Shown here one piece after another: positions 15,390-46,981 of a stretch of DNA of 50,478 bases (positions are counted from its first letter, which is position 1; each line of letters starts with the position of its first letter). The stretch lies in assembly GCF_017316025.1 (NCBI RefSeq), contig NZ_JAFLVT010000016.1:1-50478 (forward strand). Reading direction: 5' to 3'. The notes below the pieces were generated by a model, which did no database searches, had not been told where the DNA came from, and saw nothing but the letters and a program-made list of their open reading frames with translations. Source of the DNA: Candidatus Enterococcus myersii. GTDB lineage: Bacteria > Bacillota > Bacilli > Lactobacillales > Enterococcaceae. A program made the position numbers and the translations under genes.

Positions 15390-17119
15390 TGTGCCAATTC
15401 CTCCTCTGACAGCTGAGAAGCTGCAATATCATAATAAATACTGCAATTTTTCAGAAGTTCTTGGTGCGTTCCCATTCCAACAACATTGCCTTCATCTAAA
15501 ACAATGATTTTGTCAGCATGCATAATTGTCCCAACTCGTTGCGCAACAATTAGAACTGTCGCGTGGGTCGTTTCTTTTTTCAAACGAGCCCGTAATTTGG
15601 CATCTGTTTGATAGTCCAGTGCCGAGAAACTATCGTCAAAAATATAAATTTCTGGATCGCGAATAATCGCGCGGGCAATCGCTAAACGTTGCTTTTGACC
15701 ACCAGAAAAATTAGTGCCGCCTTCTGACAATTCGGCATCAAAGCCCTTTGGTGTTTGGCTAATAAAATCGGCAGCTTGCGCAATATCAACTGCCCGCTGC
15801 ATATCAGCTTGGGTAGCGTCTAATTTTCCATAACGTAAGTTTTCAGCAATCGTTCCAGTAAATAAGAGCGCCTTTTGGGGAATGTAACCAATTTTTTGCC
15901 GTAAACTTTTTAAGCGGTAATCCTTTACATTGACCCCATCAATGACCACTTCTCCTTCACTTACATCGTAAAAACGCGGAATTAATTGAATTAAAGTGGA
16001 TTTACCAGAACCAGTACTGCCGATAAAAGCAACTGTTTCACCGGGTTGTGCGGTAAAACTCACATTACGAATCACTGGGCTTTGGGCATGCCCCGGATAA
16101 GCAAAGGTAACATTTTTAAATTCGACATAACCCTTTGTTGCTGTTGTAGTGACGCCATCTTCTTTTTCAACAATTTCAGAAGTTGCATCTAACGCTTCTT
16201 GAATACGGCGAGCAGAGACAGCTGCTCTTGGATACATCATAAAGACAGAAGCAAACAGCATGAAAGAAAATAAGGCATGGAAAATATATTCGATAAAAGC
16301 AATTAAGTCCCCAATTTGCAGACTGCCTTGGTCAATTTTGATTGTCCCATTCCAAATAATTAAAACCATCACGATATTAAATAAGAAGAAAAATCCTGGT
16401 TGTGCTACTGCCATTAAGCGAAACAAACTTTTTGAGCTAGATGCATAAGCCTTATTTACTTTTTCAAATCGATTTTCTTCAAATTTTTCATTAACAAAAG
16501 CACGAATTACCCGCAAACCAGACAAATTTTCTCGTAAAATAGCGTTGATTTTATCCAAATTTCCTTGTTGTTTTGTCGATAAAGGATCAGAGAATTTAGC
16601 AATTGCAATCACCGCTAAAAGTAAAATCGGTAAAGCCGCTAACACGTACCAGCTTAAAGATGGGCTCGTTCGAAAAATCATATATAAACTGACAATAAAC
16701 ATCATAGGTGTCATAAAACCAGTTCGCAAAATATTTTGCATGAATAACATAATTTGATAAGCGTCATTAGTCACTCTGGTAATTAAAGAAGACACCCCGA
16801 TTTGTTCGTATTCATAATGGGAATATCCTTGTGTTTTTTCAAATAGATCATCGCGAATATCCGCCGTAATGTTGGTTGTAATACGGGTCGTGAAGTAGCC
16901 CAAGAGAATATTCATCACCACTCCCAACACAGTAATAATAACCATTAACAGCCCCAACTGCTGTACTTGACTAAAACTTTTGGCTGGAATAGCTGCATCA
17001 ATCATCCGCGCTAAAATAGTTGGTAAACCCAGCTCAATGATAATAAAACCAAAGACACAGATGAAATCAAAAAGTAATAGTTTTTTGTAGCGCATTGTAT
17101 AATGCCACATCAATTTCAT
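15386..17119 (-). CDS. efrA: Heterodimeric multidrug ABC exporter, first subunit (EfrA/BmrC-like)
   Basis: This 577-residue half-transporter has six membrane helices and an ABC domain with Walker A GSTGSGKS (367-374) and a canonical signature FSGGQ (471-475). Two catalytic positions are altered: Walker B reads FDDS, with Asp496 in place of the usual glutamate, and the switch histidine is Gln527 (VAQRVGT). Its own ATP site, completed by the VSLGQ motif of the partner, should therefore be non-hydrolytic while the other site works. AAAGGGGG precedes the ATG. The start overlaps the stop of a 47-codon leader frame, suggesting coupled or attenuated expression. Confidence 0.8.
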   Translation of the reverse strand: MKLMWHYTMRYKKLLLFDFICVFGFIIIELGLPTILARMIDAAIPAKSFSQVQQLGLLMVIITVLGVVMNILLGYFTTRITTNITADIRDDLFEKTQGYSHYEYEQIGVSSLITRVTNDAYQIMLFMQNILRTGFMTPMMFIVSLYMIFRTSPSLSWYVLAALPILLLAVIAIAKFSDPLSTKQQGNLDKINAILRENLSGLRVIRAFVNEKFEENRFEKVNKAYASSSKSLFRLMAVAQPGFFFLFNIVMVLIIWNGTIKIDQGSLQIGDLIAFIEYIFHALFSFMLFASVFMMYPRAAVSARRIQEALDATSEIVEKEDGVTTTATKGYVEFKNVTFAYPGHAQSPVIRNVSFTAQPGETVAFIGSTGSGKSTLIQLIPRFYDVSEGEVVIDGVNVKDYRLKSLRQKIGYIPQKALLFTGTIAENLRYGKLDATQADMQRAVDIAQAADFISQTPKGFDAELSEGGTNFSGGQKQRLAIARAIIRDPEIYIFDDSFSALDYQTDAKLRARLKKETTHATVLIVAQRVGTIMHADKIIVLDEGNVVGMGTHQELLKNCSIYYDIAASQLSEEELAQ

Positions 17120-17259
17120 TTCTTTTCCCCCTTTATTAAAATGAAGACAGGCACTGCCTGTAAACGCGTAAAATTAAAACAGATAGCTAATGAAAGAAAA
17201 ATGGACACCCCTTTTAAAAACCTCAAAGGGTGTACCTGAGCATGAATAAATTTTCGCAT
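17116..17259 (-). CDS. Putative leader peptide of the ABC exporter operon
   Basis: The minus strand reads an uninterrupted 47-codon frame starting MRKFIHAQVHPLRFLKG and ending IKGEKK, whose TGA overlaps the ATG of the exporter gene (ATGA). A hairpin followed by a T-rich stretch lies within codons 9-23. The layout recalls bmrB upstream of bmrCD in Bacillus subtilis, where translation of a leader peptide controls read-through into the exporter. Weak points: AAGG is only two bases before the ATG, and if the 17267-17272 box is the -10, the ATG would be almost at the 5' end of the RNA. A 47-codon frame can arise by chance a few percent of the time. Confidence 0.45.
   Translation of the reverse strand: MRKFIHAQVHPLRFLKGVSIFLSLAICFNFTRLQAVPVFILIKGEKK
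17195..17236 (-). terminator. Attenuator-like hairpin in the exporter leader
   Basis: On the minus strand GGTACACCCTTT and AAAAGGGGTGTCC pair around a short loop (17203-17236; one G bulged) and are followed by ATTTTTCTTT. It lies between the promoter and the exporter start, inside the leader frame, so it could stop transcription conditionally. Confidence 0.5.
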
Positions 17260-17266
17260 TACCTTC

Positions 17267-17295
17267 ACTATACCACAGTGAAATTTTTAATTGTA
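17267..17295 (-). promoter_or_regulatory. Promoter region of the ABC exporter operon
   Basis: Two -10 candidates are visible on the minus strand: extended TGGTATAGT with its hexamer at 17267-17272, and TACAAT at 17290-17295. The first lies inside a small dyad, TTCACT-N7-AGTGAA, that could be an operator. If the second is used, the leader peptide start would have a normal 5' leader of about 25 bases. Confidence 0.4.
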
Positions 17296-17370
17296 GATAA
17301 AATCAGCAGAAATTTACTGAATGTAACCCCTTTATGCCCTTTGCCTTTTCTATACTTATTGAAAAATCTA

Positions 17371-17658
17371 TGCTAAAATATCAGTAATTGGGCGCAAAAA
17401 ACGCCAAAGGAACGGTTGAATTAAAAAATAAGCGGAAAGTAAAGACGAGACTTTCTCTTTTTGAAAATCAGCTGATTTTCAAAAAGCATCCAAAATTTAG
17501 CGGAGAATTTGCTGACAATAAAAAGTTATTTGCTTTATCTATGCAAAAATTTTTTTCAAAAGTTGCTCCCCTATTTTTTGATTGCCATAATTCTCGTATT
17601 TGCCATCATTTAGATGCCATTTTTATACCGTTTAATTAATAATAAAGGAGTCAAACAG
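17371..17658 (+). promoter_or_regulatory. rpoY-rnjA promoter and long leader
   Basis: TGCTAAAAT (17371-17379) is an extended -10. The RNA would carry about 270 bases before rpoY. The leader has a GGCG/CGCC mini-hairpin at about 17390 and a perfect 30-bp palindrome at 17457-17486, but no convincing gene. An open frame beginning with TTG runs through it; it has no ribosome binding site. Confidence 0.5.
17457..17486. repeat. Perfect 30-bp palindrome in the rnjA leader
   Basis: CTTTTTGAAAATCAG is followed directly by its exact reverse complement CTGATTTTCAAAAAG. No T run follows, so it is not a normal terminator. In RNA it would form a 13-bp or longer hairpin about 70 bases from the predicted 5' end of the rpoY-rnjA message. 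Confidence 0.9.
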
Positions 17659-17872: not shown

Positions 17873-19549
17873 ATGAAAGTCTCTTTAAAGAACAACGAAA
17901 CCGGCGTCTTCGGAATCGGTGGTCTCGGTGAGATTGGAAAAAACTGTTATGGGGTACAATTCCAAGATGAAATCATCATCATTGACGCTGGGATCAAATT
18001 TCCAGAAGATGAATTACTTGGAATTGACTATGTCATTTCCGATTATAGTTACATCGTGCAAAACTTGCCAAAAGTTAAAGCCCTTGTAATTACTCACGGT
18101 CACGAAGACCATATTGGGGGAATCCCCTACTTATTGCGCCAAGCCAATATTCCAATATACGCTGGCCCACTTGCTTTAGCTTTAATTACCAACAAATTGG
18201 ATGAACACGGACTACTGCGTGATGCCAAACTTCATGAAATTAATGAAGATACGATCATTCGTTTCCGTAAAACTTCCGTTAGCTTTTTCCGCACGACACA
18301 TAGCATTCCAGATGCTTTAGGGATTGTGGTAAAAACACCATCTGGTAATATCGTTCAAACGGGTGATTTTAAGTTTGACTTTACACCCGTAGGAGAACCT
18401 GCAAACTTGCACAAAATGGCACGAATTGGGGAAGAAGGCGTTTTATGCCTTTTATCTGATAGTACCAATGCGGAAATTCCAACTTTTACCAAATCAGAGA
18501 AAATTATTGGTACGTCAATTTTAAAAATCTTTGAAAAAATTGAAGGACGAATCATTTTCGCCTCTTTTGCTTCCAACATTTTTCGACTGCAACAAGCTGC
18601 TGATGCTGCCGTTGCAACCGGACGCAAAATTGCAGTCTTTGGTCGGAGTATGGAAAATGCCATGATTAACGGTCAGAAATTAGGCTATATAAAAGTTCCC
18701 GATGGCACTTTTATTGATGCCCATGAAGTTAATCGCTTGCCAGCAAATGAAGTTTTAATTTTATGTACCGGCTCCCAAGGTGAACCCATGGCAGCTTTAA
18801 GTCGCATTGCCAATGGTACTCACCGACAAATTCAAATTCAGCCAGAGGATACCGTGATTTTTTCAAGTTCACCAATTCCAGGAAATACAACGAGTGTTAA
18901 CCACTTAATCAACTTGTTGATGGAAGCTGGCGCAGAAGTAATTCATGGTAAAATCAACAACATTCATACTTCTGGTCATGGCGGCCAAGAAGAACAAAAA
19001 TTAATGTTACGTTTAATGAAACCAAAATACTTCATGCCTATTCATGGGGAATATCGGATGTTAAAAATCCATACGCAATTGGCCCAAGATACTGGTGTAC
19101 CAAAAGAAAATTGTTTCTTAATGGAAAATGGTGATATGCTAGCTTTAACTGCAGACAGTGCCCGTATTTGTGGTCATTTCAATGCTGGAGATGTCTATGT
19201 TGACGGTAGTGGTATCGGTGATATCGGAAATGTTGTCTTGCGCGATCGCCATATCTTATCAGAAGAAGGATTAGTTTTAGCCGTTGCAACGGTTGATCTT
19301 GCTAAAAAAGAAATTTTAGCTGGTCCAGATATTTTATCCCGCGGTTTTGTTTATATGCGGGAATCCGGTGAAATGATTAACGAAGGTCAAACACTGCTTT
19401 TCAAAGCCTTAAGAGAAGCCATGAATCAGCCTGATTGTAATGAGTTCAAATTAAGAGAAGCAATGTCGAATGCTTTGCAACCTTATTTATTTGAAAAAAC
19501 CGAGCGTCATCCGATGATTTTATCCATGATTATGACACCGGAAAATTAA
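17873..19549 (+). CDS. rnjA: Ribonuclease J1
   Basis: This 558-residue metallo-beta-lactamase/beta-CASP nuclease has the zinc motif HGHEDHIGG near residue 74, GDFKFD, and DSTNAE. The beta-CASP region includes [16 protein letters not shown] and [13 protein letters not shown], and late histidines are in [10 protein letters not shown] and PIHGEYRM. RNase J1 combines 5'-3' exonuclease and endonuclease action in mRNA decay and rRNA maturation. It follows rpoY with a one-base gap and ends with a strong terminator. The start [24 protein letters not shown] has no strong ribosome binding site apart from bases within the end of rpoY, suggesting coupling. Confidence 0.97.
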
Positions 19550-19695: not shown

Positions 19696-19727
19696 ATAAA
19701 AAAATCCTCAGAATAAATTCTGAGGAT
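19696..19727 (-). terminator. Cold-shock gene terminator
   Basis: The minus strand has ATCCTCAGAAT-TT-ATTCTGAGGAT followed by TTTTTTATTT, 23 bases after the cold-shock gene stop. Confidence 0.95.
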
Positions 19728-19749
19728 AAAATGCCTATTTAAAAATAGT

Positions 19750-19950
19750 TTAGGCTTTTTCTACGTTAGTAGCTTGAGGACCGCGGTCTGATTCTTCAAC
19801 GTCGAAAGTCACTGCTTGACCTTCTTCTAAAGTTTTGAAACCGTCGCCTTGGATTGCAGAGAAATGTACGAATACATCGCTGCCATCTTCACGTGAAATG
19901 AAGCCAAAACCTTTTTCTGCGTTAAACCATTTTACTGTACCATGTTCCAT
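19750..19950 (-). CDS. Cold-shock protein (CspA family)
   Basis: This 66-residue OB-fold RNA chaperone starts [18 protein letters not shown] and carries both nucleic-acid-binding motifs, KGFGFI (RNP1) and VFVHF (RNP2). It binds single-stranded RNA and prevents unwanted structure. The start has AAGGAGG ten bases ahead; the upstream open frame is part of the leader. The promoter at 20068-20096 gives a leader of about 110 bases, as is usual for cold-shock genes whose mRNA folding is temperature dependent. The promoter begins just after radC. Confidence 0.96.
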
Positions 19951-20067
19951 GGGTGAAAACCTCCTTGTGCTTTGCACGAATTGATGTGTAACGTTGTTGG
20001 CAAAGAATAGAGGTGACCCAAATGTTTCAACTTCTATCGCTAAACCGCTAAACAAAATTACACTAAT

Positions 20068-26016: not shown

Positions 26017-26248
26017 AAAAAAAGTCCTAAGATGCCAAGCATCTTAGGACGTAAATTTACGCGGTACCACCTAATTTGTAGATCACTCTACCTCTTAAGC
26101 GTGAGTTAACGGTCACGAAACGTTTGATTTTACTAAAATTTCCAATCAAAGACTCCCAAGCTACCTTCACAAAACTTACGTGGAAATCTCTCAGCTGTGA
26201 TTTCCTCTCTCAAACGCAGTCTTCTGCTACTCCTCTTGTTCAACGTCT
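26017..26248 (-). promoter_or_regulatory. T-box riboswitch for valS
   Basis: The minus strand carries AGGTGGTACCGCG (26060-26072), the T-box that pairs with the tRNA acceptor end. It is followed by the terminator ACGTCCTAAGATGC-TTG-GCATCTTAGGAC and a T run (26017-26053). Upstream is a typical Stem I; near its 3' side the loop AAGGTAGC offers GTA, a valine codon, as specifier. Uncharged tRNA-Val would stabilise the antiterminator and switch valS on. An unusually long 213-base stretch separates it from valS. Confidence 0.93.
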
Positions 26249-26254
26249 TGGCTT

Positions 26255-46736: not shown

Positions 46737-46872
46737 TTAAAAGGATAGCAGAGAAAACTTAAAGTTATCTTCAATTTGAATATCATTTACTTAACAGCTT
46801 TTTTACGAAAAAGACAAATACTTTACCTATGTTTTCAACTGTGCCAACAGACAGAAATTAGCCAATGAAGAA

Positions 46873-46904
46873 CAAAAAAACTCTCGATTAAAAAATCGAG
46901 AGTT
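46873..46904 (-). terminator. tRNA-Asn terminator
   Basis: The minus strand has AACTCTCGATT paired with AATCGAGAGTT around a short T loop, followed by seven T residues, immediately after the tRNA. Confidence 0.93.
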
Positions 46905-46907
46905 AAA

Positions 46908-46981
46908 CTCCGGCAGTAGGACTCGAACCTACGACATCATGATTAACAGTCATGCGCTACTACCAACTGAGCTATGCCGGA
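46908..46981 (-). tRNA. tRNA-Asn (anticodon GTT)
   Basis: This 74-nt cloverleaf starts TCCGGCATAGCTCAG and ends with TGCCGGA plus discriminator G. The acceptor stem is fully paired, the D and T arms are canonical (GGTTCGAGTCC), and the anticodon loop CTGTTAA gives GTT for asparagine. CCA is not encoded. Its promoter TTGCGC-17-TATCAT is at 46995-47023. Confidence 0.97.

Follow-up and report, generated by a model that had tools for sequence, protein, structure and literature searches.

The window, which is the whole 50,478-nt stretch of Candidatus Enterococcus myersii DNA that was analysed, carries on its minus strand two half-transporter genes that overlap each other and that both gave ABC exporter matches (Table 1). 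Read by motif, the pair corresponds to a heterodimeric ABC exporter in which one of the ATP sites is degenerate, the Walker B region being IYIFDDS in the first gene and ILILDEA in the second. Since none of the NCBIfam models listed for either half-transporter reached its curated cut-off, the pump is not named by NCBIfam. The first-pass annotation had called it an EfrAB-type pump, and from its sequence this holds only if the term is taken broadly, for any heterodimeric ABC exporter. Seven such heterodimeric pumps are reported for E. faecalis, EfrAB (EF2920/EF2919) among them, and with four of the seven none of three test dyes was transported and there was no marked change in MIC (PMC4997860). 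Given these four pumps, it is uncertain whether the term "multidrug" applies to the exporter described here.

Table 1. Features of the exporter operon and of the region upstream of it, in the order of transcription. Positions are those of the window.
Feature	Position	Strand	Basis
Predicted promoter: extended -10 TGG-TATAGT (17275-17267), weak -35 CTACAA (17296-17291), 18-nt spacer	17267..17296	-	Sequence reading
P1, 5' strand AAUGCGAAAAUU; possible long-range stem at the predicted transcript 5' end	17249..17260	-	Folding; invariant in five leaders
47-codon frame; ATG 17259-17257, TGA 17118-17116 overlapping the exporter ATG (17119)	17116..17259	-	ORF reading
Predicted terminator hairpin, 11 pairs; arms 17236-17225 and 17213-17203	17203..17236	-	Folding; present in five leaders from four species
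U-rich tail AUUUUUCUUU of the predicted terminator	17193..17202	-	CCAUUUUUCU identical across five leaders
P1, 3' strand AAUUUUACGCGUU	17163..17175	-	Invariant in five leaders; no covariation
Hairpin P3, ACAGGC-AGU-GCCUGU	17147..17161	-	No change in the stem; loop differs in length and sequence (AGU, AGAA, GCU)
Small hairpin P4 adjoining the exporter RBS	17126..17146	-	Predicted folds
First half-transporter gene of the ABC exporter, 577 aa	15386..17119	-	ORF and ABC exporter matches; Walker B followed by D (IYIFDDS), motif read by eye
Second half-transporter gene, 587 aa	13626..15389	-	ORF and ABC exporter matches; Walker B followed by E (ILILDEA), signature VSLGQ, motifs read by eye

Upstream of the first gene, the extended -10 sequence TATAGT (17272-17267) with TG in front of it places the predicted transcription start at 17260/17259, which is either the ATG (17259) of the 47-codon frame or one base ahead of it. 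A sigma-70 promoter scan did not include the extended -10 site at 17275-17267 in its list. The GAAGG that might be taken for the ribosome binding site (RBS) of the frame (17266-17262) is located upstream of this predicted start and 2 nt from the ATG (17259-17257). Were transcription to begin at 17260/17259, GAAGG would sit within the promoter and would stay untranscribed. The first-pass annotation had itself cautioned that the RBS is too near the ATG, the gap being 2 nt even with an upstream start, and that one of two promoter candidates would leave almost no 5' leader.

Between the predicted promoter and the exporter, and inside the frame, lies the hairpin with a T-rich tail that had already been recognized as terminator-like. 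In the window it folds with -15 kcal/mol (z of -2.6, with 2 of 200 shuffles folding as well), and it recurs in five leaders of four species, these being the window itself, a second genome of the window's species (G007), G008, E. dispar and E. canintestini. A scan for a hairpin plus U-tract gave, in this order, -15.2, -12.2, -15.5, -11.5 and -11.7 kcal/mol, scores that were equalled by 0, 4, 0, 5 and 3 of 100 shuffles, respectively. A simple terminator scan did not list this hairpin (17236-17203), listing a smaller one at 17161-17145 instead, since the loop is 11 nt long and the range of the scan is 3-8. The best fold of the 5' stretch includes the terminator hairpin in three of the species; for nt 1-60 of the E. 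canintestini leader, U-tract included, a different fold comes out best, with GAAAA paired to the U-tract at -13.8 kcal/mol.

The stem has changed in sequence among these leaders. With the arms aligned on their structure, E. dispar and E. canintestini have CACUUCAA/UUGAGGUG where the window has CACCCUUU/AAGGGGUG, and of the 8 stem pairs that were compared across the five leaders, 3 are altered on both sides, 2 on one side and 3 are unchanged, with none broken, a count that rests on structure-anchored matching of the arms by hand. This was done by hand since in the E. dispar and E. canintestini sequences MAFFT puts the arms two columns out of place. One of the two pairs changed on one side passes through U-G, U-A and C-G. 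The loop and the flanks diverge while the stem pairs hold, and the fold is conserved in 5/5 of the leaders. Compensatory change in the hairpin among relatives, which the first-pass annotation had named as a check of its proposal, is present. Since the changes on both sides rest mainly on one split, with the window species and G008 on one side and E. dispar and E. canintestini on the other, they amount to few events. Within this comparison of leader sequences, compensatory change shows selection for the hairpin fold, and a putative intrinsic terminator between the predicted promoter and the exporter is supported.

The leader has a narrow distribution. In a DNA search of 10 genomes of the genus, nearly the whole region was matched in the two genomes of the window species and in G008 (90%), G004 (80%) and G002 (79%), the leader of G004 being the same as that of the E. 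dispar record. For the remaining five genomes the best match was confined to the exporter gene (query 211-423 at most), with G009 giving an additional weak match to the promoter. A covariance model of the leader was then run on two sets, the first comprising 59 of 80 loci (the best 80 of 243 from a protein search of named genomes for the exporter) together with the window and nine genome loci, and the second comprising, under stricter filters, 105 genomes of the window's family, 5 of which matched at E below 1e-14. One model alignment (A4) holds one chance match and was left out of the counts. Matches ranking below the leader set, one at 46784-46920 of the window (E 0.059) and one each in G022, G056, G064 and G066 (E 0.025-0.044), were taken as chance. 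A repeat or mobile insert was rejected, the window's own genome having one BLAST match at E 0.001 and one covariance match, with weak, short matches at E 0.02 and above in the search of the genus, and the leader gave no Rfam match at gathering score to a known RNA family. As far as these searches reach, the leader is restricted to one clade, the E. dispar group.

Most relatives appear to place the same promoter much closer to the exporter. By a single pattern, TG-N-TA(T/C)NNT, which was picked after the sequences had been read, a box lies 20-60 nt ahead of the exporter start codon in 58 of 85 upstream regions, only farther off in 12 and nowhere within 200 nt in 15. Among the Enterococcus sequences, with G007 (L003) omitted as the second genome of the window's species, the box is found at 20-60 nt in 47 of 58, only at 134-188 nt in 8, and not within 200 nt in 3. 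Four of the 8 have the terminator leader and the other four (L057, L058, L060, L070) have other long leaders. The proportion of 47/58 is in line with the same promoter being used, minus the terminator leader, in most of these Enterococcus sequences. Apparent leaders of ~90-180 nt precede the exporter gene in several other lineages (the four just named, L086, L089 and L095), and a run of 6-7 U occurs near the predicted start in several of these seven. No clear terminator was found in them or in two shorter leaders (L087, L098), the best of these nine being that of L057, for which 10 of 100 shuffles were as good.

We think it probable that this clade-specific 5' leader with its premature terminator acts as a transcription attenuator before the exporter operon, since the stem is kept in all five leaders, the leader is found in 5/105 genomes and 47/58 of the Enterococcus sequences have a near box instead. 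The exporter operon would then be transcribed from the extended -10 promoter (17296-17267), giving the E. dispar group a transcript 5' end of ~140 nt as against ~25-45 nt in most relatives, and the long form would be the derived one. The putative terminator would end part of the transcripts ~65-70 nt after the start, and read-through would be regulated, or at least a low basal level of the exporter would be set by the terminator. In the read-through RNA the 5' end could pair with 17175-17163 (P1), and two more hairpins would form before or over the RBS; together these may affect mRNA stability or translation. If correct, one enterococcal group would control an ABC exporter through a premature terminator placed ahead of its genes, and since the relatives have the same promoter without the leader, a clean comparison with and without it would be available.

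The terminator may alternatively be unregulated, producing either a fixed drop in expression or a short RNA of ~65-70 nt, an explanation that overlaps with the attenuator in everything save regulation. In favour of this explanation, the leader has no evident sensing domain: in the window species the hairpin is preceded by only 24 nt, and the first 13 of these are invariant. The compensatory change indicates selection for the fold, yet it does not tell a fixed use of the terminator from a regulated one, and overall we regard an unregulated terminator as unlikely.

The first-pass annotation had proposed a different form of regulation, by ribosome behaviour on a leader peptide, as in bmrB-bmrCD of Bacillus subtilis; read-through would then follow when ribosomes translating the frame slow down or stall. 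The 47-codon frame is indeed present, and its TGA (17118-17116) overlaps the exporter's ATG (17119) as had been described. In that system a small frame likewise lies directly before a heterodimeric ABC exporter and holds a terminator-like hairpin, and bmrB is reported to start at an annotated GTG behind a 5' UTR, to have a predicted antiterminator and to require translation for induction (Reilman 2014, PMC4191407). The enterococcal frame differs in that it starts at the predicted +1, would lack a transcribed RBS and is not conserved. Three of the four species (that of the window, G008 and E. dispar) keep it open, and it is closed after 20 codons by a stop at codon 21 in E. canintestini. Frame-shifting indels occur in both close species pairs, of 4 nt and 1 nt between the window and G008 and of 1 nt and 1 nt between E. 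dispar and E. canintestini. In favour of a coding role, the former (-4, +1) sum to -3 so that G008 is back in frame ahead of the stop, in the three species with an open frame the leader length is kept modulo 3, and in E. canintestini an ATG at +21 opens the same end frame. An open frame of such length is only mildly unusual, appearing by chance in 263 of 5,000 dinucleotide shuffles. A terminator within a short frame abutting the exporter is found in the window species, G008 and E. dispar, and the +2 ATG frame of E. canintestini does not have this layout. From these four species, with indels in both close pairs and the stop in E. canintestini, we read this as an absence of peptide conservation, with a small residue of doubt.

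Folding of the RNA ahead of closure of the terminator also revealed no antiterminator conserved across the four species. The pre-terminator hairpins have ~ -3 to -6 kcal/mol and none is common to all four; those overlapping the 5' arm have -3.1 to -3.4 kcal/mol in three of the species, with an extra fold of -6.0 in E. canintestini and none at the arm in E. dispar. By geometry, a stall within the first ~8 codons would cover the 5' arm of the hairpin, and this, like the position of the terminator inside an open frame that runs into the exporter, speaks for control by translating ribosomes. Against it stand the predicted +1 at the ATG, which would leave GAAGG in the promoter, the indels of 1 and 4 nt, the E. 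canintestini stop and the want of a common antiterminator, so that ribosome-mediated attenuation of this kind is also unlikely and a bmrB-type sensing peptide is most probably not what the 47-codon frame represents. What stands of the earlier "leader peptide and attenuator" is therefore the premature terminator, which is likely an attenuator (5/5 leaders, with 3/8 pairs covarying), while the antibiotic-sensing peptide finds no support in the relatives. A quite improbable variant is that the transcript begins on the AUG of the frame and is translated as a leaderless message, a 70S ribosome loading at its extreme 5' end, slowing within the first few codons and, seated on the 5' arm, blocking termination directly without any antiterminator. 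If this were so, the state of the ribosome would be coupled to exporter expression by a leader of only ~65-70 nt, and with a ribosome inhibitor as the trigger the leaderless frame would make a drug-sensing switch of very small size.

The remaining structures of the leader concern the read-through RNA. P1 forms between the first 12 nt and 17175-17163 in all five predicted folds, followed by P3 and a hairpin at P4, and the 3' strand of P1 is fixed whereas most of the preceding 17 nt vary. The pairing energy of P1 is not significant, being matched by 148 (window), 158, 353 and 233 of 2,000 shuffles, and among seven unrelated control leaders that of L089 pairs its own 5' end more convincingly (1 of 500 shuffles). 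The whole 143-nt leader is likewise not unusually structured (z of -1.10, with 26 of 200 shuffles as good). Since the second strand of P1 is transcribed only after the terminator, P1 is unable to control termination. The register of P4 differs among the predicted folds, so that the RBS is covered in the window species and G008 and free in E. dispar and E. canintestini. A DNA operator at ACAGGC-n3-GCCTGT was considered for P3 and set aside as less likely, since G008 has a spacer of 4 and an RNA loop agrees better with that. Control at the level of translation or mRNA stability, in which the 5' end and the RBS would take their form from P1, P3 and P4 and the terminator hairpin would be only a part of that fold, would account for the invariance of the P1 strands and the P3 stem and for their presence in every predicted fold, but it is very improbable given the shuffle results for P1, the low z of the whole leader, the variable register of P4 and the lack of covariation in invariant pairs.

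A putative attenuator before the exporter has parallels elsewhere. Premature terminators before ABC transporter operons, called ABC-leaders, were predicted on a large scale in 2010 (Naville and Gautheret, PMC2965389), and one of them, in Lactobacillus gasseri and L. johnsonii, precedes an operon for multidrug export. The present leader, which belongs to other species, resembles them in its putative premature terminator ahead of ABC exporter genes. The vmlR leader of B. subtilis likewise has a terminator before an antibiotic-resistance ABC gene, which differs in being an ABCF gene acting on the ribosome and no exporter (PMC9226507; PMC4191407). Among the titles and abstract openings searched, nothing was found on such an enterococcal leader before an exporter, and efrAB, Enterococcus and "leader peptide" were not found together in any paper searched.

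Divergent from the exporter, on the plus strand, an apparent 5' leader (~17378-17658) precedes a gene beginning at ~17659 (NCBIfam NF010188), which is followed by another at 17873-19549; we take these to be rpoY-like and RNase J-like, respectively. A hairpin in this leader, GGAAAGU-n9-ACUUUC at 17434-17455, covaries, with 6 of its 7 predicted pairs changed on both sides in at least one of 24 aligned relatives, these being 24 of 69 sequences taken from the best 80 of 243 loci, with the window itself outside the alignment. Further hairpins and a possible pseudoknot (ACGAGG/CCUCGU) were seen by eye only. The leader had no Rfam match at gathering score, and titles and abstract openings of the papers listed contained no such autoregulatory leader of RNase J; it could be such an element. 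The same apparent leader contains a perfect 30-nt palindrome (17486-17457), whose arms are largely kept in G008 and E. canintestini while the letters of its loop differ. Two further leaders in the window were recognized by Rfam, both on the minus strand, a cspA-type leader at 19700-20057 and a T-box leader at 26042-26252, the latter followed by a gene that is presumably valyl-tRNA synthetase-like.
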